From: a virus
Virus record (IMG/VR): IMGVR_UViG_3300030109_004479
Coordinates: 35,543 to 67,291 of that record
Reading direction: 5' to 3' (one strand)
Length of the DNA stretch: 31,749 nt
Below the pieces are notes generated by a model. That model ran no database searches. It was not told where the DNA came from and saw only the letters and a program-made list of their open reading frames with translations. The position numbers and the translations under genes were made by a program. Positions 3 through 16,870 of the stretch are shown here, in pieces. The number at the start of each line of letters is the position of its first letter. Position 1 is the stretch's first letter.

Positions 3-968
3 TTTGTAACTAATCTAAATGACGAGGACGAAAGAGAATTTAGAGAAGGCAGTCCTAAGTGGTCAAGAATCCAAAACTTACTTTATGTCAGACAAAACGG
101 GCAACTAAACTCCATGAGTTTCAGTTATGTTCATCCTATGTCTCCAATCTTAGATTCCCTAATGCGGGGTTTTGAGAGTGCAGTAAGGGGTGAACCTAAA
201 AAAGCAATAGAAGCTCTAACTACAGATTACCTATTAAACACATTCTTAAACGAGCAGATTATGTTCTCCGCAATGATGGACGTGTTCGTATTTAATGAAG
301 ACGCTAACACGGGCAGAGAAATCTACACTGAGTATTCCCCCGATGCTCTTCAGTTGAAGTTAAAGTACATTTATGAAAAAGGTTTAGAGCCGCCTTCATT
401 AACGGCCACTAGAAAAATAATTAAAGCAACAGGAGATGCCGACTACAAAACAGGAGAGGATGCTAGAACATTTATGGGAGCTCCATACTACAGTCCTGAG
501 GGGGAGTTCTTTAGGCATATAACTCCTGTTAAATTCCACGCACTTCAGTTAGAGCAACTAGCAAGGAGACGCTTCAAAGAAATTCAAGGCGGGTTGTATG
601 GTGAACTCTCCAGAAAAAATGTACTTCTTAACGAAGAAAAAGGTTATCAAAATAAACAAGTCCAAAAAATTATTAACAGGGAATACCAAGCGATGGAATC
701 AGCTTTGAAAGATGCTCGTGCTGCTTACTTAGTTTACTCAAAAGCTTTAGGTGAAACAGCTGTTAAAGATATAATGAAAGGAGCTAGACTTAGAAAAAGT
801 TTAGTAGATATAGTAGCTAAGGGATACATAACCACTGAAGACTTCCAAAGCGAAGGACAAGGTATAAAGGATTACTTGTCAGACAGAAACTTAGACATAA
901 GAAGACAAAGAGTTATAGATGCCTACAAAAATAGTATGGGTGGATCACTCCTTAGGAGTCTTGATTAA
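3..968 (+). CDS. C-terminal part of a large phage protein (5'-truncated by the window edge)
   Basis: The reading frame is open from base 3, upstream of the first in-frame ATG at 114, so this is the last ~321 residues of a longer protein and 114 is probably not its start. The visible part is mostly alpha-helical and charged. A segment about 70-140 residues in (LNEQIMFSAMMDVF..., then ...ANTGREIYTEYSP) resembles, by eye, the helical 'large polyvalent protein'-type domains found in very long phage virion or ejection proteins. The C-terminal ~130 residues are rich in Lys, Arg and Glu and look helical or coiled. It faces the minus-strand genes tail to tail across a 160-bp gap. On a circular map it could be the last late gene, such as an internal virion protein, but that is inference. 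No catalytic motif was recognised. Confidence 0.75.
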   Translation, partial: FVTNLNDEDEREFREGSPKWSRIQNLLYVRQNGQLNSMSFSYVHPMSPILDSLMRGFESAVRGEPKKAIEALTTDYLLNTFLNEQIMFSAMMDVFVFNEDANTGREIYTEYSPDALQLKLKYIYEKGLEPPSLTATRKIIKATGDADYKTGEDARTFMGAPYYSPEGEFFRHITPVKFHALQLEQLARRRFKEIQGGLYGELSRKNVLLNEEKGYQNKQVQKIINREYQAMESALKDARAAYLVYSKALGETAVKDIMKGARLRKSLVDIVAKGYITTEDFQSEGQGIKDYLSDRNLDIRRQRVIDAYKNSMGGSLLRSLD

Positions 969-976
969 GTAGAACC

Positions 977-1032
977 CCGTACACCGTACATTTTAAACCC
1001 CTCATAGATCATGATACAGTGTACAGGGCTCA
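977..1032. repeat. Heptamer-periodic repeat array A (8 units)
   Basis: Eight consecutive 7-bp steps in one register; seven end in CA. Units include CCGTACA (twice in tandem), GTGTACA and GGGCTCA; the third unit (991-997) is degenerate. The array lies just after the stop codon at 968, in the gap between convergent genes, and runs into the stem-loop at 1033. The same unit family recurs at 2187, 3962, 4539 and, inverted, at 4653. Confidence 0.7.
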
Positions 1033-1072
1033 TCGTGGGAAAGTAACAACGAAGTAAAACCTTTCTCCACGA
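1033..1072. terminator. Stem-loop between convergent genes, possible bidirectional terminator
   Basis: An 11-bp stem (TCGTGGGAAAG at 1033-1043 against 1061-1072) with one bulged T at 1066 and a 17-nt loop. It sits between the plus-strand stop at 968 and the minus-strand stop at 1129. Neither side has a good T-run, so it may stabilise 3' ends rather than terminate intrinsically. Confidence 0.45.
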
Positions 1073-1128
1073 GGGGGACGCATTTAAGTCCCTCAGTATT
1101 ATCAGTAGCGTGTATTGAAGATATATAA

Positions 1129-1407
1129 TTAAAGCTCGTCGTCAATATTATTTGAATTATTTTTAGGTTCTCGTAGAACCATCTCATAAAAACTAGTTAT
1201 AGCAGCAGCTTTATCGGGCCCTTTATACAAAACCACATCAAATTTAGATTCAATATTTGGTATGTATGAGTGGGCTACTACTGCGTAATTGTCCTCTCCT
1301 GAGCCCGTCTGAGCATACATACATATGCTTTCATAAGGCCCTTGTTCAGGTTTCTCTAGTTTTAATAGTACTTCCCTGACTGCGTTAGGTTCTGTTGCTG
1401 TTTGCAT
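1129..1407 (-). CDS. Small hypothetical protein, last gene of the left minus-strand set
   Basis: A 92-residue protein with no recognised family. The middle (residues ~20-75) alternates hydrophobic and polar residues (ICMYAQTGSGEDNYAVVAHS, then FDVVLYKG), which suggests a small beta-alpha fold. The C-terminus is short, acidic and Asn-rich and looks disordered. Its ATG lies inside the end of the DnaA-IV-like gene (23-bp overlap), so translation is probably coupled to it. No clear Shine-Dalgarno precedes the start. An overlapping minus-strand frame at 1002-1187 looks like noise. Being in one set with a DNA-binding protein hints at an early or regulatory role, but nothing in the sequence shows a function. 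Confidence 0.65.
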   Translation of the reverse strand: MQTATEPNAVREVLLKLEKPEQGPYESICMYAQTGSGEDNYAVVAHSYIPNIESKFDVVLYKGPDKAAAITSFYEMVLREPKNNSNNIDDEL

Positions 1408-1693
1408 AGTTGTCTATGTGTTCATTCAAAGACTCAAGAGTATCTTTTACGCTACTCTTGTGTTGTTTTACTTTCTTCTCAGCCATAATGACTGTAGAAA
1501 AATGTCTATTAAACATCTTACCCACCTCTACCAAAGTGTACCCCCTAGCCCGTGCCGCAAACATTCCTAAATGCCGCCACTGACACACAGCCGCATCTCG
1601 TGTTCCGCTTTTTAAATCTTCTGCCGAATAGCCCGAAACGCTAGATAAAGCATCTAATATATGTGCCGACGATGTCTTTTTATGTAGTATCAT
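1385..1693 (-). CDS. Stand-alone DnaA domain IV-like DNA-binding protein
   Basis: A 102-residue protein that aligns by eye along residues ~10-78 with the C-terminal DNA-binding domain of the replication initiator DnaA (domain IV, Bac_DnaA_C family). The parallels, in order, are a first helix with a 'GYSAEDLKS' turn (E. coli has a similar 'IKVADLLSK'), a basic loop ending QWR near 38-40 (E. coli RPRQM), a helix LGMFAARARGYTLVEVGKMF, and a signature NRHFSTVIM at 62-70 matching GRDHTTVLH. The AAA+ ATPase domain is absent, so it can bind DNA but not form a DnaA-type ATP filament. The Asp-His pair that reads the DnaA box in E. coli is His-Phe here, so the target site is probably different. It overlaps both neighbours (14 bp upstream, 23 bp downstream) in a three-gene operon. 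Likely roles are control of replication origin use, interference with host DnaA, or transcription regulation; these are inference. Confidence 0.75.
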   Translation of the reverse strand: MILHKKTSSAHILDALSSVSGYSAEDLKSGTRDAAVCQWRHLGMFAARARGYTLVEVGKMFNRHFSTVIMAEKKVKQHKSSVKDTLESLNEHIDNYANSNRT

Positions 1694-1895
1694 TTGTATG
1701 TAAAATATGGTTTAACCTCTTAGCTAATTTATTGTTCTTTAATTGAAAGGGCTCCCCCACAAAAGCGGGCATCTCTGGTGGTGAAATTATAGGGAACATT
1801 TTCACAGAGTCAGGTTCTACTATTCCTTCATTATCTATTACACCCTCTATCATGAAGGGCATATTATTTGGAAATACTTCCCTAATTATCTGCAT
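1680..1895 (-). CDS. Small hypothetical protein, first gene of the left minus-strand set
   Basis: A 71-residue protein. It has many Pro and hydrophobic residues in the first two thirds (FPNNMPFMIEG, then MFPIISPPEMPAFVG) and a basic C-terminal tail (LKNNKLAKRLNHILH). No family was recognised. Its 3' end overlaps the DnaA-IV-like gene by 14 bp, which suggests translational coupling. The region before the ATG is AT-rich with no strong Shine-Dalgarno. It may be a partner or regulator of the DNA-binding protein, but only the position supports that. Confidence 0.6.
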   Translation of the reverse strand: MQIIREVFPNNMPFMIEGVIDNEGIVEPDSVKMFPIISPPEMPAFVGEPFQLKNNKLAKRLNHILHTNDTT

Positions 1896-2162
1896 ACTTA
1901 ACTCTAATCTTTCTATAATTTCAACGCAAGTTCAAAAATGGGGTGGCATTCATACGTTAAAAGGAAAACATGTAAATTTTTTTTAAAACTAAAACTGGCT
2001 CATAAATCGCTCAGGAATGGAGGCAGTGATTATTAGGTAAGTATTAGCCATATATTAATAAGAGCCTTTTAAGGGCTGTTTTAAACCCCTTCAGAATTAA
2101 ATACAGAAGGCAACGGTACAGGATAAATCCATACAGGCGATTCTCAGGCAGTTTAAAATCAC

Positions 2163-2198
2163 AAAAAAAAGCGGTGCACCCATTACAGGTACACCGCT
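2163..2198 (-). terminator. Rho-independent terminator of the right minus-strand set
   Basis: Read on the minus strand this is a GC-rich stem (AGCGGTG at 2170-2176 with CACCGCT at 2192-2198, extended by ACC/GGT after one mismatch) followed directly by eight U residues (A-run at 2163-2170 on the plus strand). It lies 18 bp past the stop of the 2217 gene. The upstream arm doubles as part of the heptamer repeat family: AGGTACA, CCGCTCA and GTGTTCA run in register from 2187 to 2207. Confidence 0.85.
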
Positions 2199-2214
2199 CA
2201 GTGTTCAGTATTTA
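2187..2214. repeat. Heptamer-periodic repeat array B (4 units, fused to a terminator)
   Basis: Units AGGTACA, CCGCTCA, GTGTTCA and GTATTTA in one 7-bp register, the first three ending in CA. The first two form one arm of the terminator at 2163-2198. GTGTTCA is identical to units in the arrays at 3962 and 4539. Confidence 0.5.
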
Positions 2215-2216
2215 AT

Positions 2217-2393
2217 TTAGCTATCCTTTACAGACTGCTTAGTGACCTGAACTTTGGTCACCTGATTAAGCTCATCAACATAGGATATTGCCTCCTCTAT
2301 TTTTTCTTTTATCTCCTTTCCAGTGGGCTCCAACTCGCACCAATGCGACGGAGCTCCATAGAAAGTGAACTTATATAATTTTGCTTTTTTCAT
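2217..2393 (-). CDS. Small hypothetical protein
   Basis: A 58-residue protein if it starts at the ATG whose first base is 2393. That ATG forms a 4-bp ATGA overlap with the stop of the upstream gene, so I prefer it to a GTG two codons earlier (2399). The N-terminus is basic with aromatics (KKAKLYKFTFYG) and the rest is an acidic, probably helical segment with many Lys and Glu (KEIKEKIEEA) and then a polar tail. No family was recognised. It is the last gene before the terminator at 2163-2198. Confidence 0.65.
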   Translation of the reverse strand: MKKAKLYKFTFYGAPSHWCELEPTGKEIKEKIEEAISYVDELNQVTKVQVTKQSVKDS

Positions 2394-2737
2394 AACCACG
2401 GTTGGATATCTTTTAAAGTTCGTTTTATAAAATAGTTAATTACAGGTGCCAATCCTAACGGACTAACAAACTTGCGAACCTGCCTTAACATTTTTATCCT
2501 ATCTAAACCTGAGCGCACTATTTGACGTTCCTCAAGTGTGAGGGGCTCCAGAGTTTCTAAGTCTAGAGCTGTAATCCTATCCCACGATTGCCTCCTAACA
2601 ACTGCCCAACCAATTGATTTTGCATATGTTAGTGCAGACTTACGAGTAGGGAAAGGGATCTCAAAGTCAGGGCAGAGTCGGCTAACTAAAGCCCACTCTG
2701 ACCCAACTCTGATTAGATAACTACCTGACCGTGCCAT
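2390..2737 (-). CDS. Hypothetical basic protein
   Basis: A 115-residue protein. Residues ~5-50 (YLIRVGSEWALVSR, then PFPTRKSALTYAKSIGWAVVRR) look like a compact alpha-beta domain with conserved-looking Trp and Arg residues. Residues ~70-115 are a basic helical region (RSGLDRIKMLRQVRKF). The positive charge would fit nucleic-acid binding, but no family was recognised. Its ATG overlaps the stop of the DUF932-like gene by one base (TAATG), and its own stop overlaps the next ATG (ATGA), so it is the centre of a translationally coupled trio. Confidence 0.7.
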   Translation of the reverse strand: MARSGSYLIRVGSEWALVSRLCPDFEIPFPTRKSALTYAKSIGWAVVRRQSWDRITALDLETLEPLTLEERQIVRSGLDRIKMLRQVRKFVSPLGLAPVINYFIKRTLKDIQPWL

Positions 2738-3906
2738 TAGCTGACTAACTCAGGTGCAGTGGTTGCTAATAAAGAATCACGCTTAACAGTTGGAAGCGTA
2801 ATCAACTTTCCTGCGATCTCCTCCAACTTAACTCGACGGCTAAATGATTCAACCTCCTGAGCCATGCGAGTCACTGCGGCCTGTACACCGTACAAGTTAG
2901 GCTCCTCATTTTGCATGGCCATCTCAGCTATCTTAGTTTCGATATCTGAAAACTTATTTTCAGTACCAACTCTTTTTATAACCTCAATTGGATCACCAGT
3001 TACCTGTGCCTCATGAGACTCTTTTAAAATCTCAGCGAACTCGGCATGCTTCTTAGGATCAAGTGCCGCTCTGGTAGCGTCAGCTATAAGTACTTTAAGT
3101 GAAGCTAACTCAGCCTTGCGGAAGCTATCAGCTTGTAACTTACCGTACTCCTGAGAGATCTTAGAACCTCTATGAACCTCTCGGAATTCCATATGATTCT
3201 GCTGACCAAATCTTAGGCCATTTAAGCAATAAGCATCACACGCAAAAAAGCTACCTTCAAAGGCCCCATCACCTGTACCACTATTTGAAATACTGGTACC
3301 TAAGTGAACTTCCCTGTCACCGTTTGCAGTTGGCATTACTACCACTGGATCTTTTGTGACAATGTTAAAGTAAGTACGCTCCATAGTAGCTCGGCCACCT
3401 AAGATTACATACTCGGTATCATGCTCTTCAATTACTGGTATCATGGTCTCAAGAATGAGATCATCATCTATTGGCTTGTAAGTATCACCACAGAATGCCC
3501 TTGCTACAAATAAGCCTGCCTCATTTTGCTGAGACCTTACCAAGAACTTTCTAGAGTCTCTCTCAAACTGCTCGTTAACAATTTGAGTAAGCAATGGCTT
3601 CTGGTCAGTCTCAACTAAGTGATCACTGAGTGAGCTGAGGCCCTTAGCCAATTTGCCATACATTTTCTTATTGAAGTGGCGGTTGGTTGGGAACTCGAAT
3701 TGTGGCTTGTTAGGATCAGTGTTCGACAAGTTAAAGGTGAACCGTTTCATTTCCTCACTCCAGTCAAATCTCATTTGTGAAGAGTGACCAATCAGGTCGA
3801 CACGCTCACGAGAAATTTGCTCCCACAATTTATCCAAAGGTCTTACCGCAGCATTCTTGCTACTTGATCTTGGAGTTAATACGGCTTGTTCATTTTCTAT
3901 ATTCAT
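2737..3906 (-). CDS. DUF932-like protein
   Basis: A 389-residue protein. The middle matches, by eye, the pattern of DUF932-type phage and plasmid proteins: RAFCGDTYKPIDDD near residues 136-149, the beta segment EYVILGGRATMERTYFNIV, SNSGTGDGAFEGSFF near 206-220, a CLNGLRFG turn near 227-234, and HRGSK near 244-248. The last ~130 residues are helical and charged. DUF932 proteins are common in phages, plasmids and genomic islands, but I know of no settled biochemical function, so no reaction is proposed. The N-terminal ~30 residues are Ser/Asn-rich and probably disordered. The ATG follows a 94-bp gap with no Shine-Dalgarno. The leader shares the 12-mer CTAACAAACAAC with the leader of the 4419 gene. 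Confidence 0.65.
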   Translation of the reverse strand: MNIENEQAVLTPRSSSKNAAVRPLDKLWEQISRERVDLIGHSSQMRFDWSEEMKRFTFNLSNTDPNKPQFEFPTNRHFNKKMYGKLAKGLSSLSDHLVETDQKPLLTQIVNEQFERDSRKFLVRSQQNEAGLFVARAFCGDTYKPIDDDLILETMIPVIEEHDTEYVILGGRATMERTYFNIVTKDPVVVMPTANGDREVHLGTSISNSGTGDGAFEGSFFACDAYCLNGLRFGQQNHMEFREVHRGSKISQEYGKLQADSFRKAELASLKVLIADATRAALDPKKHAEFAEILKESHEAQVTGDPIEVIKRVGTENKFSDIETKIAEMAMQNEEPNLYGVQAAVTRMAQEVESFSRRVKLEEIAGKLITLPTVKRDSLLATTAPELVS

Positions 3907-3925
3907 AATGTATATTTTGTTTTTC

Positions 3926-3937
3926 GTTGTTTGTTAG
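3926..3937 (-). promoter_or_regulatory. Shared leader motif, copy 1
   Basis: CTAACAAACAAC on the minus strand, 20-31 nt upstream of the DUF932-like ATG. The identical 12-mer lies 15-26 nt upstream of the 4419 gene. Both are followed by A-rich, Shine-Dalgarno-free sequence with a nearby CAACGAAA. A translation enhancer or regulator site is possible. Confidence 0.5.
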
Positions 3938-3961
3938 TCAGTACTAGTTGTAAGTGCTGAA

Positions 3962-4010
3962 GTGTGCACCCTGCATTGTACAGGGTGCAGTGTTCAGTGC
4001 TCACTCCTCA
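3962..4010. repeat. Heptamer-periodic repeat array C with a 9-bp hairpin
   Basis: Seven units in one 7-bp register, all ending in CA (GTGTGCA, CCCTGCA, TTGTACA, GGGTGCA, GTGTTCA, GTGCTCA, CTCCTCA). The array contains a perfect stem, TGCACCCTG at 3965-3973 with CAGGGTGCA at 3981-3989, loop of 7. It covers the stop codon (4001-4003) of the minus-strand gene 4001-4186. The hairpin lacks a U-run, so it may be an attenuator or 3'-end stabiliser rather than a terminator. Confidence 0.75.
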
Positions 4011-4186
4011 ATAATAAACCAAGGCGATAGGTCGCCAGACTTTACCGACTCATTCAAATACTTAAGCAACTGCTCAGTGACATCTTCTGAACTGCTACCA
4101 GTGAAACTCAAGTTGCATGACGCACTAAAGTATTTCGTTTCATCAGCCGTACGCATAAGCTTACCGTCTTTAAATTTATACTTCAT
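4001..4186 (-). CDS. Small hypothetical protein
   Basis: A 61-residue protein. An N-terminal beta-like part (YKFKDGKLMRTADETKYF) is followed by Ser-rich sequence and a helix (TEQLLKYLNESVKSG), ending WFIIEE. No family was recognised. Its ATG overlaps the upstream stop (ATGA at 4183-4186), typical of a coupled operon. A plus-strand frame across the same DNA (3954-4202) lacks such context, so the minus-strand reading is preferred. The last codons are made of heptamer repeat sequence. Confidence 0.65.
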   Translation of the reverse strand: MKYKFKDGKLMRTADETKYFSASCNLSFTGSSSEDVTEQLLKYLNESVKSGDLSPWFIIEE

Positions 4187-4419
4187 ACTTCTGAATCGTT
4201 AGAGCCCCAGTCTGAAGTACCGTTATTAAAACGGTTTACTACGTCACCTACGTTGACCTCAAGTTGGCCGACAAATGGGGCACAAGCTTGGGTTATTACG
4301 TTGCTGACCTGTACAGTGTCACAAGCTACGATTTTAGTTACCGTACCAAACAATGTTCTCTCACATTCTAAGGCTCCATAGTTAAAGGCGACAAAGTCAC
4401 CACGTTTTATTGTATTCAT
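4183..4419 (-). CDS. Small hypothetical protein, first gene of the right minus-strand set
   Basis: A 78-residue protein predicted to be a small beta-barrel: KRGDFVAFNYG, then LFGTVTKIVACDTVQVSNV, then VGQLEVNVGDVVNRF. The spacing of Gly, Val and Asp resembles KOW- or SH3-like barrels that bind nucleic acid, but this is only a fold-level impression. It is promoter-proximal: a candidate promoter lies at 4465-4492 and the leader contains a short hairpin (AGGGG/CCCCT at 4444-4458) and the shared CTAACAAACAAC motif. No Shine-Dalgarno is visible. Confidence 0.65.
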   Translation of the reverse strand: MNTIKRGDFVAFNYGALECERTLFGTVTKIVACDTVQVSNVITQACAPFVGQLEVNVGDVVNRFNNGTSDWGSNDSEV

Positions 4420-4433
4420 AATTTCGTTGTTTA

Positions 4434-4445
4434 GTTGTTTGTTAG
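4434..4445 (-). promoter_or_regulatory. Shared leader motif, copy 2
   Basis: Second copy of the 12-mer CTAACAAACAAC on the minus strand, 15-26 nt upstream of the ATG at 4419. It touches the leader hairpin at 4444-4458. Confidence 0.5.
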
Positions 4446-4464
4446 GGGTTCATCCCCTCAAGTA

Positions 4465-4492
4465 ATAGTACTAGCTGAGCTCTACAACTCAA
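4465..4492 (-). promoter_or_regulatory. Candidate promoter for the right minus-strand set
   Basis: On the minus strand, a -35-like TTGAGT (4492-4487), a 16-bp spacer and a -10-like TACTAT (4470-4465). It would give a leader of about 40 nt. Each hexamer has one or two mismatches to the sigma-70 consensus, so this is tentative. Confidence 0.35.
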
Positions 4493-4538
4493 CAGTTAAT
4501 TAAGATAAACTTATTAGCCATATGTGATTAACTTTATA

Positions 4539-4594
4539 GGGCTCAGTGCTCAGGGCTCAGGATTCATTGTACAGGATACGGTGTTCAGGGCTCA
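4539..4594. repeat. Heptamer-periodic repeat array D (8 perfect-register units)
   Basis: Eight 7-bp units with no insertions; seven end in CA and one in CG. GGGCTCA occurs three times, with GTGCTCA and GTGTTCA. This is the clearest array and gives the working consensus G(G/T)GNTCA. It lies about 120 bp upstream of the 4419 gene start. Confidence 0.8.
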
Positions 4595-4652
4595 GCTTGG
4601 AATGTATCAATATGAATCTGGCTTTGGAGTTTCAGATATCAGCACCGCTCAT

Positions 4653-4680
4653 TGAATACTGAACAATGAACACTGAAAAA
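4653..4680 (-). repeat. Heptamer array E, inverted orientation
   Basis: On the plus strand TGAATAC, TGAACAA, TGAACAC and TGAAAAA follow each other in one register. Read on the minus strand these give GTGTTCA, TTGTTCA and GTATTCA, the same unit family as the arrays at 3962 and 4539. An ACCGCT box lies immediately upstream, at 4644-4649. Confidence 0.6.
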
Positions 4681-4763
4681 AGCATAGGGATCAGCGGGTG
4701 ATATTCGTTACTCACTGAGAGTCATACAGTTGTACAGGAATCAAGACTAATCATTACGCATAT

Positions 4764-4822
4764 TGTAGGAAGTTATGACGCCACGGGTGGGGGTGGTAGT
4801 TTTCGTGGCAGATCCTCCTACA
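4764..4822. other. Long imperfect stem-loop with G-rich loop
   Basis: The outer stem is TGTAGGA (4764-4770) with TCCTACA (4816-4822). The inner stem is GCCACG (4780-4785) with CGTGGC (4804-4809). A 9/6-nt asymmetric internal loop separates them, and an 18-nt terminal loop is G-rich on the plus strand. AT-rich DNA follows at once. It could be a small structured RNA, an origin stem-loop or a regulator site. Confidence 0.5.
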
Positions 4823-4890
4823 TATATACACCTTTATAAAAAAATTAATGGGAAATTCCATTTTTTGTAGCGGGTTTTTTATTTTTAATA

Positions 4891-4952
4891 AGCGGTCGCT
4901 CAAAAAAGGCACCGCTCTTTTTAAAAAACAGGTTAAATAAGCGGTTACCGCT
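4891..4952. promoter_or_regulatory. AGCGGT/ACCGCT inverted boxes, candidate operator or iterons
   Basis: AGCGGT at 4891-4896 pairs with ACCGCT at 4911-4916. A second pair forms the 13-bp palindrome AGCGGTTACCGCT at 4940-4952. Related AGCGG or CCGCT cores lie at 4645, 4692 and 4868, and the same AGCGGT/ACCGCT pair forms the ends of the terminator at 2170-2198. The palindrome covers the -35 position of the candidate plus-strand promoter. Confidence 0.5.
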
Positions 4953-4971
4953 CATAATAATAGTATATAAT
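4943..4971 (+). promoter_or_regulatory. Candidate promoter for the late operon
   Basis: A perfect TATAAT -10 hexamer at 4966-4971 in AT-rich DNA. The hexamer 17 bp upstream (GGTTAC, 4943-4948) is a poor -35 and lies inside the 13-bp palindrome, as expected if an activator or repressor controls it. The leader to the 5143 ATG would be about 165 nt. Confidence 0.4.
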
Positions 4972-5062
4972 ATTTAGATAAAAAGTTTGCAATACTAAGG
5001 GAGCCGAGATATCGTAAGAAAACAGAAGGGGGTGGGGGGTCAGAAAGCTTTAATATATAGTG

Positions 5063-5096
5063 CTCACAGTTTCTACTGTACAGTGGAAAGTGTGAG
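5063..5096. promoter_or_regulatory. 34-bp near-perfect inverted repeat with no loop
   Basis: Arms 5063-5079 and 5080-5096 match at 15 of 17 positions. They are built of CTCACA/TGTGAG, TTTC/GAAA and the central palindrome ACTGTACAGT. It lies 47 bp upstream of the first late gene. A two-fold symmetric site this long suggests a dimeric protein operator; as RNA it would be a hairpin without a U-tract. Confidence 0.65.
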
Positions 5097-5121
5097 AGGA
5101 CTAAAGAAGAGTTATATATAA

Positions 5122-5135
5122 GGGGGGTACCCCCC
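5122..5135. promoter_or_regulatory. Perfect G6TAC6 palindrome at the ribosome-binding position
   Basis: GGGGGGTACCCCCC ends 7 nt before the ATG at 5143. The only Shine-Dalgarno-like bases (AAGGGGGG) are inside it. If folded as RNA it would hide the ribosome-binding site of the first late gene; as DNA it is an unusual perfect symmetric site (it contains GGTACC). Confidence 0.65.
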
Positions 5136-5142
5136 TAAAACT

Positions 5143-5586
5143 ATGAAGAAACAAATACCATACGCTAAGAAGTACGAGATAAACGAAGAGCACGACATAT
5201 TTAACAATGGTAAGCTTTTAAAACCTTCCGTTAAAAATGGTGTGTCCTATGTAAACTTGTACTGTGATGACGGGTCACGGAGATACCTTAAGGCTTCTAA
5301 ATTGGCCGAGGACACGTTTAAACCAAAAAAGAGGACAATCACATCAGACATCATCTTAAACAAGATGGGAGCAAAACTAATCCCTCTTTGGGAGAGGTAC
5401 GCCATTACTGATTACGGAGCCGTGTTTTGTGTAGACCCTCCCAAGAGGGGGAAAGGAGCGAACGAGTGTTTCATGGTTAAACAAAGATTTATACGAGACA
5501 CACCATATGTAACCCTGCATAGTTTTTCGGGAGACAGGAAAACAATAAAGGTGGATGACTTGATGAAAGAGGCGTGGGATTATTAG
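5143..5586 (+). CDS. NUMOD4-like two-module protein without nuclease domain
   Basis: A 147-residue protein with two tandem segments like the NUMOD4 modules that usually accompany HNH homing endonucleases. Module 1 is about residues 8-59 (...FNNGKLLKPSVKNGVSYVNL... then SKLAEDTF). Module 2 is about 79-145 (ERYAITDYGAVF, then TPYVTLHSFSGDR, KVDDLMKEAW). Each follows the pattern 'start of beta hairpin, Gly-x-Val/Leu, GY.V.L, Leu..A..F'. No HNH motif is present, so it is probably a DNA-binding protein rather than a nuclease. It is the first gene of the late block, just upstream of the portal gene and behind several symmetric DNA sites, so it could regulate late transcription; a broken homing endonuclease is the alternative. 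The ATG is set by the palindrome and spacing. Confidence 0.55.
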   Translation: MKKQIPYAKKYEINEEHDIFNNGKLLKPSVKNGVSYVNLYCDDGSRRYLKASKLAEDTFKPKKRTITSDIILNKMGAKLIPLWERYAITDYGAVFCVDPPKRGKGANECFMVKQRFIRDTPYVTLHSFSGDRKTIKVDDLMKEAWDY

Positions 5587-11637: not shown

Positions 11638-11662
11638 CTTAACTTAACTTAACTTAACTTAA
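11638..11662 (+). repeat. Five tandem CTTAA repeats before the capsid start
   Basis: (CTTAA)5 lies directly after the leader hairpin and ends 19 nt before the capsid ATG at 11682. It keeps the translation start unpaired and free of a Shine-Dalgarno. The repeat number could vary between related phages. Confidence 0.8.
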
Positions 11663-11681: not shown

Positions 11682-13001
11682 ATGGCCGCAGACTTCGGAC
11701 TACCACACGATTTTGCAACAGATGCCTCCGCAGCAGTAGATACTGTTCTTACCCAAGAAGCGGGGCGAATTGGTGCAGATATTCACAAGGCAACTCTCCA
11801 CACATCACCGTGGATTGACCTTATTAAACAAACAACCTTTCCAGAAGGAATGGGGTATCAATTGAGTACACTTATTTATGACCGTGCTCTTCCACTATCT
11901 CCTATTAACAAGGACTTTACTGACTCTGGTATTAGTGTAGGTGTTGACTTTTCACCTATCGGATCAACTCACGGAACTGCCGCTAATGGTATGTCTGCGA
12001 ATCAGCAAGACCAGACTTTGTCTATAGGTACTGAGAAAGCAAGTGTTAACACTCTTGACTTCACTAAAGTTCAAAAGAACTACAGCCTTGAGAGAGCTAT
12101 CGTTGAGTCTCCACGAATTAACGTTGAGGAACTTCGCTACACTGCTCACAGAACTGAGCAACTTCGGGCTATTATGGATATTCTGAAAGAGTCTACCCGC
12201 CATTCGTGGGAAGAGCGTTACCGTGATGAGTATTCTAAGCTCTGCGACAACGTAGTTGAGTGTTCAGCCTCAGGCACAGCCACTACTACTAATCTTGAAG
12301 GAACGGTTCTTACCGCTATTAACGTAGATACTGGAAACAACGGTTGTGACATTGACGCTAATATCTCCAACAAGATTCTTGATGATATTTACTTCAAACT
12401 TGTTAGAGCTGGTGCTGGAGCAAACGCTTATGGCCGTGAGAATGGCCGCCCAGTGTTCTCCCTTGTTCTTTCGTCTGAAGCATCATATCAATTGATGACT
12501 GAAGCTGGATTCCGTGATGACGTGCGTTACAATAATGCTAAAGTTTCTGACCTCATTGCTCCATTAGGAGTTGAGAAGAGCTTTAGAGGTTTCTATCACT
12601 TGGTAGATGATCTTGCACCACGTTTCTCATTTAACGCTAGTACTGACAAACTGGAAAGAATTGATCCTTACACTGTTAGTGATACTACTGGTTCTGCAAC
12701 GAACAAGGTTATTGTTAACACTGCTTACGATTCTGCCGACTTTGAAGCAGCTTACGTTCTCGTTGATAACGTGATGGAGTCTTTGATTCCTGCACCAATC
12801 ACTAATGCTAACGGATTATCCTTTAATCCTGTTAACTACAAAGGTGAGTTCAAGTGGACTAACATCCCTGATGTAACACTTAACCCAGACGGAACTATTG
12901 GTTTCTTCAGAGGTATTCTTGCTTCGGCTTCTAAGCCAATCAAGACTAACTTCGGGTATGCCATATTGTTCAAGCGTACAAGTAGTACACCTGCTGCTTA
13001 A
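11682..13001 (+). CDS. Major capsid protein
   Basis: A 439-residue protein that forms the icosahedral head shell. The support is position directly after scaffold and small genes, its own promoter candidate and leader, a hairpin just downstream (13009), and a composition rich in Ala, Asn, Asp and Thr with one long helix (about residues 125-185, ...NYSLERAIVESPRINVEELRY..., then RAIMDILKESTRHSWEERYRD) as in HK97-fold capsids. Codon choice also differs from the neighbours by eye (more GTT, CGT, GAC and AAC-type codons), as in highly expressed genes. No name-giving motif exists, so the call rests on context. The ATG is preceded by an A-rich spacer after the (CTTAA)5 tract. Confidence 0.8.
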   Translation: MAADFGLPHDFATDASAAVDTVLTQEAGRIGADIHKATLHTSPWIDLIKQTTFPEGMGYQLSTLIYDRALPLSPINKDFTDSGISVGVDFSPIGSTHGTAANGMSANQQDQTLSIGTEKASVNTLDFTKVQKNYSLERAIVESPRINVEELRYTAHRTEQLRAIMDILKESTRHSWEERYRDEYSKLCDNVVECSASGTATTTNLEGTVLTAINVDTGNNGCDIDANISNKILDDIYFKLVRAGAGANAYGRENGRPVFSLVLSSEASYQLMTEAGFRDDVRYNNAKVSDLIAPLGVEKSFRGFYHLVDDLAPRFSFNASTDKLERIDPYTVSDTTGSATNKVIVNTAYDSADFEAAYVLVDNVMESLIPAPITNANGLSFNPVNYKGEFKWTNIPDVTLNPDGTIGFFRGILASASKPIKTNFGYAILFKRTSSTPAA

Positions 13002-14331: not shown

Positions 14332-15813
14332 ATGGCAACATCCCCGAACAGAAGACAACGGGTATTTGAGTTCGCAACTCCAAAGGTAGCGGATTTAGTT
14401 GTTGTCGAAGTGGTTGACGTTAGCAGAAAAGCGGGGTCTGCCGAAACTATAAGTGATAGTGCTTATGGGTCTAATCATCCTAACACAGATAAGTTTCCTG
14501 ACTTTAAATTAGCTTTAATTAAAAATGCTGATGAAGATCAAGGCCAGTTTCAATACTGGTATTATGTAAAAGACAGGGCTAGTCAAGACGACTATAACTG
14601 GGAGTTCCAAGCTGCGGGAGGCTCTAATCCTTTGTATGATACTGTGGTCAGAACGTATGTAACTCTTCGTAGTAGCTACGAAACCAACTCTCCTAAAATA
14701 GGTTACAATACATCCGTTGATACCGAAGCTTTATTAAACTTAGGTCAGAAGAAAGATAATAATACTTACATGCCTTCGGGCGATACAGACTTAACTCCCT
14801 TTTCAGGAACCGTCTTGGCAGGTACAGACTCTAGTGGAGCGGCTATTCTAGCAACTAGAACAAATGGAGTTAAATTTGACACTGATTATATTTTATTTGA
14901 AAGAAGACAAGTTCGTTCAGGAGATGAGACTTTGGATTCTTTATATGTTGTAGAGCAGCGGGTATTTATAAAAAAGATCCCTATTCGTGGAACGGACGTA
15001 GACGCAGAGTTTAATTTTGCTCTTCGCTCTAAACAAACAATTTTTCATAAAGACGAGCTACCTGTAAAAACTACAGTGTTTAAGGAATCAGACACAACAG
15101 TACCTACAGACCCTTCTAAGAACACTTCTCAAGTTTTTGCTTTAGGGAACGCAGCTACTGCTCAGGGCCCTATTCCTTTTTTTGGATCTAAGTTAATAGA
15201 TGGTGAGGGGTCTAATAAATTTGGTATTCTTTGTGAAGGTAGACAGTTGTCAGATAATTGGTATTCTATTTCTGAAAAAGAAGTTGTTAAGACAGATACT
15301 AATAACTTAGTTCGATCTTATACTACATATCAAAATTATACGTGGCCAGCTGTTCTTGATCGAATTGCAGATGAAAACTGGACACGGAATGACGGGGGTA
15401 CCGACACCATAGTTTATCCTATCTATAAAAGAGGTGCCTATAGTGGCCCTACTAAAGTATTAGTTCAATTGTATTGGACAGACTCTGATACTGGTTTTCC
15501 TACATCTACTTCTCAAGACGGAGGGCACACTCATATAGGAACAATAAATCCAATGCTTCCTGAGCCTTTAGTATTTCAGACTCCCATAGCAACGGTAAAC
15601 GTACCTCCTACTTTACATAACCAAATTTTGGTTACAGCTACAACAGGAAGCAACCACCCTGTATACAATTATATAGGAACTCGCTGGCTGTTTTTAAAGA
15701 CAAATCATGTAGATTGGCCTGACACTATTATAATAGCGGATTCACAGAGACCTTATAGAGGAGGTTTTTTGAGGGAAAAGATAACTGCATATAAACCTGT
15801 AGCTTCTACATAA
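14332..15813 (+). CDS. Large structural protein, probably tail
   Basis: A 493-residue protein, Thr-, Ser- and Asp-rich with regular beta-like segments and no signal peptide. A DGGHTHIG element near residues 395-402 matches the HxH motif seen three times in the next protein. The last ~60 residues contain aromatics and basic residues (RWLFLKTNHVDW). It lies between the decoration-like and fibre-like genes, so a tail or tail-tip role is likely. No enzymatic motif was seen. Confidence 0.6.
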   Translation: MATSPNRRQRVFEFATPKVADLVVVEVVDVSRKAGSAETISDSAYGSNHPNTDKFPDFKLALIKNADEDQGQFQYWYYVKDRASQDDYNWEFQAAGGSNPLYDTVVRTYVTLRSSYETNSPKIGYNTSVDTEALLNLGQKKDNNTYMPSGDTDLTPFSGTVLAGTDSSGAAILATRTNGVKFDTDYILFERRQVRSGDETLDSLYVVEQRVFIKKIPIRGTDVDAEFNFALRSKQTIFHKDELPVKTTVFKESDTTVPTDPSKNTSQVFALGNAATAQGPIPFFGSKLIDGEGSNKFGILCEGRQLSDNWYSISEKEVVKTDTNNLVRSYTTYQNYTWPAVLDRIADENWTRNDGGTDTIVYPIYKRGAYSGPTKVLVQLYWTDSDTGFPTSTSQDGGHTHIGTINPMLPEPLVFQTPIATVNVPPTLHNQILVTATTGSNHPVYNYIGTRWLFLKTNHVDWPDTIIIADSQRPYRGGFLREKITAYKPVAST

Positions 15814-15814
15814 C

Positions 15815-16870
15815 ATGGCTGATATTGATGCTAGTGGTAGAGGAGATGTAAAAGAATCTGCTGGGTCAAGCCTAACAGAACTTAATTTAGTTGATAACCC
15901 CTACGGTGAGTTTCAACACAATATATTTGATGCAAACTACGAACATTCTCCGTACACCTCTTTTAATGGTTCGGGGGCCTCTAGTGGTTCAGGTTCTGGG
16001 TTAGGGAGTATAACTCCTGTACATCCTTTTAAATTAGAAAGATTTGTAGATTCTTCAGGGAGCCCTAGGACTCGTTTATATAAAGGTTATTTACGATATT
16101 GTATTAATACTTTTAAAACAATAATTCAAAGTGATACTAAAACGACTACTGCTTATAGCACTTCTGCAAATGGTTCAGATGCTAATTCAAAAACACACAC
16201 TGAAAGTGCTCATACCCACAGTCTTACTGACTATACTGGAAGTGTTTATTCTTCTGGTGGATCATACTCCGACACCCCCCACCAACATAATTTAGGAGGT
16301 AGTACTGAAGGAGTTGATTCTCCAACTGATGGGCATTTTCACAAGATTCCCGATTTAGTACCTTCAACCTCAACAGTAGATAAGTTTGTGTGTGTTCATG
16401 GGCAGACGGAAGGGCAAGGAATTTTAAGAGATGTGTCGGCAAACGGTTTTGGTGAAATTACAAATGATTTAGGGGAAGGCACGGGGGTTTATGCTATGGA
16501 CTTACCTGTTGGAGATACATTTGGTTCTATTTTTTTAAAATGGAAAATAGTTTTATCTGATACGGTTGATCTTTCTGGGGTTACTATAAGTGCTGCTGAT
16601 GTAACAATTCACAGAGATGCTGCTGTAACTAAAGAAGCTCACGAACTTTCAGACGATGACCAACTTCCTAAATTAGAATCAGACAACGAAGGAGCTAGTA
16701 TGACTAATTTTGATAGAGGAGGTGAGTCTGAAGATGACAGGACGGCTTACTTTTATGTAAAAATAGGCGAGTCCTACCCTGCTGCGGAAGGCTCCCTTAA
16801 ATCTATTGTGCAAATAACTTACGATAATATTAACTGGACTCCTTTACTAATATCAAGAGCGAGTACATAA
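15815..16870 (+). CDS. Fibre- or tip-like protein with three HxH motifs
   Basis: A 351-residue protein. It has a Gly/Ser-rich linker (residues ~50-65), then a Ser/Thr-rich region with HTH at ~133-135, HQH at ~156-158 and HFH at ~174-176. Such His-x-His motifs bind metal ions in trimeric phage fibre tips (the iron sites of the T4 long tail fibre gp37 tip are the known case). The C-terminal half is acidic and beta-like (ISAADVTIHRDAAV, then YFYVKIGESYPA). A receptor-facing or needle role is inferred. It starts 1 nt after the previous stop. Confidence 0.6.
   Translation: MADIDASGRGDVKESAGSSLTELNLVDNPYGEFQHNIFDANYEHSPYTSFNGSGASSGSGSGLGSITPVHPFKLERFVDSSGSPRTRLYKGYLRYCINTFKTIIQSDTKTTTAYSTSANGSDANSKTHTESAHTHSLTDYTGSVYSSGGSYSDTPHQHNLGGSTEGVDSPTDGHFHKIPDLVPSTSTVDKFVCVHGQTEGQGILRDVSANGFGEITNDLGEGTGVYAMDLPVGDTFGSIFLKWKIVLSDTVDLSGVTISAADVTIHRDAAVTKEAHELSDDDQLPKLESDNEGASMTNFDRGGESEDDRTAYFYVKIGESYPAAEGSLKSIVQITYDNINWTPLLISRAST

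Follow-up and report, generated by a model that had tools for sequence, protein, structure and literature searches.

What are the tandem seven-base units that recur in the leftward gene block of this phage, and are they read as DNA or as RNA? The window (the whole stretch of 31,749 nucleotides analyzed, to which coordinates refer unless given as contig positions) covers bases 35543–67291 of a 67,291-base viral contig, G000, and is closely preceded there by ten N (contig 35532–35541). This contig encodes an uncultured tailed phage with a family A DNA polymerase, a DUF5906 protein, a PD-(D/E)XK nuclease, a helicase, and a terminase; its portal, capsid, and terminase gave no match among 50,697 annotated phage records. 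Its two closest sequenced relatives are G001 (72.7 kb, ~91–95% nucleotide identity across the leftward block) and G002 (54.9 kb, ~67–85% identity in the alignable pieces).

Several other features of these genomes were observed along the way. Contig 18236–35551, outside the window, is a single open reading frame of ~5,771 codons with the ten N at its end. The DUF5906 and DNA polymerase genes are present twice in G001 (C1 2848–5013 and 68705–70870), the two copies being ~88–90% and 97–99% identical to G000, possibly through duplication or a joined assembly; another contig, G019, likewise carries doubled genes, two for the helicase and two for the terminase. Five exact copies of CTTAA (11638–11662) lie just upstream of a capsid-type gene (11682–13001), and a 78-aa leftward protein (4183–4419) matches the N-terminal domain of ribosomal protein L11 weakly, under the curated cut-off. 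Finally, G000, G001, and G002 each hold two copies of a conserved element of ~120 bp, one ahead of the rightward structural genes (5020–5131) and one immediately past the terminase gene (contig 16022–16143); it encloses a near-perfect 34-nt palindrome (about 5063–5096) and could serve as a late leader or promoter.

Across the non-coding sequence of the leftward block, the self-match at lag 7 was 0.325 versus 0.267 in dinucleotide shuffles (z 4.95), with further peaks at lag 14 (z 4.5) and lag 21 (z 2.4); the remaining lags from 3 to 20 stayed within about 2 SD, but lag 2 was also raised (z 4.5). The 7-bp autocorrelation proposed in an earlier note on this DNA is thus clearly above that of shuffled intergenic sequence. 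A unit profile was then built from 26 units of the tracts listed in that note, with a consensus of about KKGYNCA, so that matches in the leftward block are partly by construction and matches elsewhere are not. Inspection of the units and the profile both bore out a strict 7-bp register at 4539–4594 (segment score 65.8), which is also the top lag-7 stretch of the entire window, at 3962–4010 (52.4), at 977–1032 (32.3), at 4653–4680 in inverted orientation (27.0), and at 2187–2214 (23.3). The tract at 977–1032 had been counted as eight units; they are in register, but the middle ones (TTTTAAA, CCCCTCA, and TAGATCA) form a hairpin loop and are not good units. The looser tracts described at 2099–2150 and 4716–4743 did not score as tracts, the second having two units at most.

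In ten simulated genomes, profile scores seldom went above 16 and never above 17.5, and tracts were called at a score of at least 20 across four units. At this threshold the full contigs contained 9 tracts in G000 (67 kb), 10 in G001, and 8 in G002; the reversed profile gave no match in any of the three, and column-permuted profiles gave a mean of 0.2 in G000 (200 trials) and of 0.2–0.3 across the three, with maxima of 7, 6, and 5, respectively. The gaps of the late block do lack tracts, as had been noticed, with no profile match of 17 or more at 5000–31749. The tracts were also said to be confined to the gaps of the leftward block, and this held only in part: the five gap tracts are there, but others lie within genes outside the window, at contig 6362 (the primase-like DUF5906 gene), 12206 (helicase), 14694 and 15275 (terminase), and 32436 (the 5771-aa ORF).

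This density seems to belong to a narrow lineage. Six related contigs that are whole or nearly whole have 0–2 tracts each, versus 8–10 in the three phages. A clade-wide feature was considered and rejected: 30 profile matches were found in 76 related contigs, but 3 of 60 permuted profiles equalled or exceeded this number, and the 23.5 matches per Mb compare with 14.6 reached in unrelated viral contigs. An initial comparison of 72 versus 2 matches, made against the reversed profile alone, overstated the clade-wide signal.

The phage units run head to tail every 7 bp, as in heptanucleotide tandem repeats, but they are diverged in all tracts and nowhere near-identical. Exact repeats of this kind are known in prokaryotes, such as TAACTGA in Beggiatoaceae (PMC4679880) or GGGAATC in Xanthomonas and GGGGA(T/C)T in Nostoc (PMC4692102), and like the phage tracts they are mostly intergenic. 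When rotated and read on the other strand, TAACTGA becomes GTTATCA, which like the phage units places CAG every 7 bp. In the main genome studied, however, the TAACTGA sets lie mostly just upstream of start codons (PMC4679880), whereas the phage tracts lie past gene ends, in a control region, or within genes. The TGAACACTG-like tracts that the earlier note vaguely remembered from bacterial genomes do exist. Tandem repeats of GTGNNCA are very common in viral and genome collections, other heptamers are common too, and similar ones occur in many phyla, often as pure unit repeats. A specific excess of GTGNNCA in viral contigs was discarded, as a backwards control pattern was also abundant among the matches listed, in part through related words. 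An inverted partner within 90 bp was found for 23 of 156 bacterial arrays, and a vocabulary like that of the phage was seen in one order (7 of 296 genomes, 1 for the backwards control) and in one class (6 of 274 genomes, 5 for the control). For the host-derived repeats suggested in the earlier note, the wide spread of similar heptamers would speak in favor, whereas the frequent purity of the arrays and the small share of genomes that have them would speak against. No report of a comparable heptad set in a phage was found in the open-licence literature.

Since tandem heptamers of so many sequences, the control pattern included, abound in the DNA of bacteria and viruses, and since surveys tie them to polymerase slippage (PMC4679880), the tracts could be the functionless remains of a heptanucleotide microsatellite that arose by replication slippage. 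We consider this unlikely. In gaps A–C (those of hairpins A–C, described below), G000, G001, and G002 differ by substitutions and by indels of other lengths, with no gain or loss of a 7-bp unit, gap D aligning only poorly, and the hairpin arms that the tracts form are better conserved than the adjoining genes. Moreover, about half of the sampled viral triplets are pure repeats, whereas the phage units are heterogeneous, and the tracts within genes are not protein insertions, two of them looking synonymously conserved.

The gap tracts coincide with predicted hairpins. Hairpins A, B, and C fold strongly in G000 (z −3.4 to −5.4) and have orthologs in G001 and G002. Hairpin A (977–1032, minus strand) lies between two convergent gene ends, at 968 (plus strand) and 1129 (minus strand), and both of its arms consist of heptads around the loop in the middle. 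Its fold is much stronger on the minus strand (dG −32.0, z −4.7) than on the plus strand (dG −16.7, z −0.7) because the G·U wobble pairs of the leftward RNA become A·C on the opposite strand. The stem is kept in G001 and G002. Two stem positions differ between G000 and G001, with pairing preserved in the leftward RNA only, while in G002 the inner stem has become CACACA/TGTGTG, changed on both sides yet still paired above a conserved stem base, so that the heptads are lost and the structure is kept. This covariation rests on few changes because the leftward block is common to three genomes only. An additional inverted repeat, TCGTGGGAAAG ... CTTTCTCCACGA, adjoining hairpin A at 1032–1076 was spotted by eye.

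Hairpin B (2169–2199, minus strand), found in a terminator scan, has a G+C-rich stem of 14 pairs followed by a T run, a combination present at this hairpin only and absent from A, C, and D. By this pattern it would be a leftward intrinsic terminator. It is conserved in G001 and G002 and folds at z −3.4 on the minus strand and −2.9 on the plus strand. The heptad tract at 2187–2214 (AGGTACA CCGCTCA GTGTTCA GTATTTA) supplies one of its arms and continues into an unpaired extension; the orthologous tract of G002 scores 43.4 with the profile.

Hairpin C (3950–4010) is found past the stop of the gene at 4001–4186 (minus strand) and ahead of a DUF932-like gene. Its arms are made of heptads, the seven-unit tract at 3962–4010 (plus orientation) overlapping the stop codon of that 61-aa gene. 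These arms are nearly identical across the three phages, versus 81% identity in the neighboring gene region, and include a block of 28 bp that is identical in G002, in which the loop is 37 bp longer. Hairpin C folds on both strands (z −3.5 to −6.1). In the divergent control region, the eight units at 4539–4594 (plus orientation), the longest heptad tract, pair with the four inverted units at 4653–4680 (minus orientation) as hairpin D (z −2.9 on the minus strand, −0.9 on the plus strand). Only A and B show clear strand asymmetry, pairing fully just in the leftward RNA; C, D, and a hairpin specific to G002 (at 39360) fold about as well on one strand as on the other. A search of 900–5200 against Rfam gave no match at the gathering level and two weak sub-threshold matches, to sRNA families only.

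We tentatively favor, though at somewhat less than an even chance, the idea that the tracts are cis elements acting at the nucleotide level, mainly as stem-loops of the leftward RNA. The tracts of the leftward block would mostly be stem-loop arms in that RNA, placed after or between genes. The sequence itself shows the periodicity, the predicted stems with their conservation in both relatives, the terminator signature of B, and the strand-asymmetric pairing of A and B; the functions that follow are inferred from it. Hairpin B would end leftward transcription, and hairpins A, C, and D, assigned to this role because they have no U run, could shape mRNA ends through processing, stabilization, or weak termination. 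The heptad form may have its origin in the near self-complementarity of units such as TGNNCA: a heptamer tract can then fold on itself, and its stems would later be refined by substitution. Among the meanings listed in the earlier note, the RNA-binding tract is the nearest, in that the gap tracts are predicted arms of RNA stem-loops with one terminator-like hairpin among them, though not in the sense of RNA bound by a protein. A comparable arrangement is found in the P6b stem of the Nostoc trnL group I intron, where degenerate 7-nt repeats (TDNGATT or NNTGAGT) pair into an RNA stem (PMC4476775), as in hairpins A, C, and D. However, P6b belongs to a self-splicing intron and varies in length by 7-nt units, whereas the phage tracts, by the Rfam search, are not in a group I intron and show no such variation between the three phages in gaps A–C.

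The tracts within genes do not fold well, hence RNA structure does not account for the entire set. Four in-gene tracts were observed versus a mean of 0.25 under synonymous-codon randomization (150 trials for each null, with a maximum of 1, or of 2 with within-gene permutation), and the four matches are all on one strand, whatever the direction of the gene. In the terminase gene, comparisons among six sequences find an unchanged codon in 94% of cases within the tract at 14694–14721 (contig) versus a mean of 57%, the top of 191 windows for synonymous conservation in that gene; the helicase tract, with 74%, is in the top 5% of windows. A neighboring weak heptad stretch near terminase codons 127–138 is also among the best synonymously conserved. 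Conversely, conservation does not extend to G002 for the tracts at contig 6362 and 15275, and heptad score and synonymous conservation showed no overall correlation genome-wide. The strongest few loci had a synonymous excess of +0.15 (permuted mean 0.00, SD 0.075, maximum 0.20), which is suggestive only. These in-gene tests were all chosen once the tracts had been seen and carry that caveat. Protein insertions were rejected as the origin of the in-gene tracts: those of the terminase are in segments whose alignment with 19 related sequences shows no insertion, and the segment of the helicase tract aligns except for about 2 extra residues. As the relatives at large show just 2 in-gene tracts versus 0.43 expected, the excess belongs to the lineage of G000, G001, and G002. 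A bias of tract orientation relative to genes, initially strong, was traced for the most part to the TGA stop codons that one strand of the unit contains, because tracts within ORFs show the opposite bias.

These in-gene tracts are better explained if a protein reads the heptads as contiguous sites in double-stranded DNA, for regulation, replication, or segregation, in the manner of Omega/ParB on plasmid pSM19035; the hairpins would then follow from sites that are almost palindromic and are found in both orientations. The strict register of degenerate units, the longest tract lying in the divergent control region, the excess over the synonymous-codon null, the common strand of the in-gene matches, and a terminase tract that ranks first in synonymous conservation among the windows examined in its gene are all consistent with such a reader, and the nearly equal folding of C, D, and the G002-only hairpin on both strands would also suit recognition at the DNA level. 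In addition, the leftward block encodes a 102-aa protein (1385–1693, minus strand) with a DnaA domain-IV-type DNA-binding domain (PF08299, E 1.3e-10), which is, by this resemblance, a candidate heptad reader. Yet this gene also occurs in relatives with just 1–2 tracts, its presence in 6 of 20 related contigs showing no clear link to tract number, and DnaA boxes are not enriched. The parS sites of pSM19035 consist of at least four contiguous 7-bp repeats, direct and inverted, in control regions (PMC9499535), and the phage has runs of eight (4539–4594) and seven (3962–4010). However, their consensus, WATCACW, differs from the KKGYNCA of the phage, and they are read by a ribbon-helix-helix ParB acting with a ParA, neither of which was found among the 20 phage proteins scanned with Pfam. 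As hairpin A of G002 also retains its stem while dropping the heptads, and the pairing of A and B favors one strand, we hold recognition by a DNA-binding protein to be doubtful, if still a real contender.

The spread of the tracts along the contig, mostly in one orientation, could also suggest recombination or packaging signals scattered along a single strand of the phage DNA. This is very improbable: the tracts are clustered in one block, and their orientation is weakly defined, the unit core TGNNCA being palindromic. To our knowledge, no recombination or packaging signal has the form of a heptad tract.

Beyond the stem-loops of the leftward RNA that we prefer, there is a small chance that a degenerate heptad vocabulary, kept across one lineage in gaps and, through synonymous codons, in genes, is read genome-wide by a phage-encoded factor. 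Tandem seven-base repeats are of a known kind; a dense, diverged, and conserved set of them in a phage is unusual. The role of tandem heptamers in bacteria was left open in the studies that described them (PMC4679880, PMC4692102), and a small phage genome offers a compact setting for their function. Diverged heptads maintained as conserved hairpins, together with two in-gene tracts that look synonymously conserved, make this function testable through mutations in a small number of stems or units.
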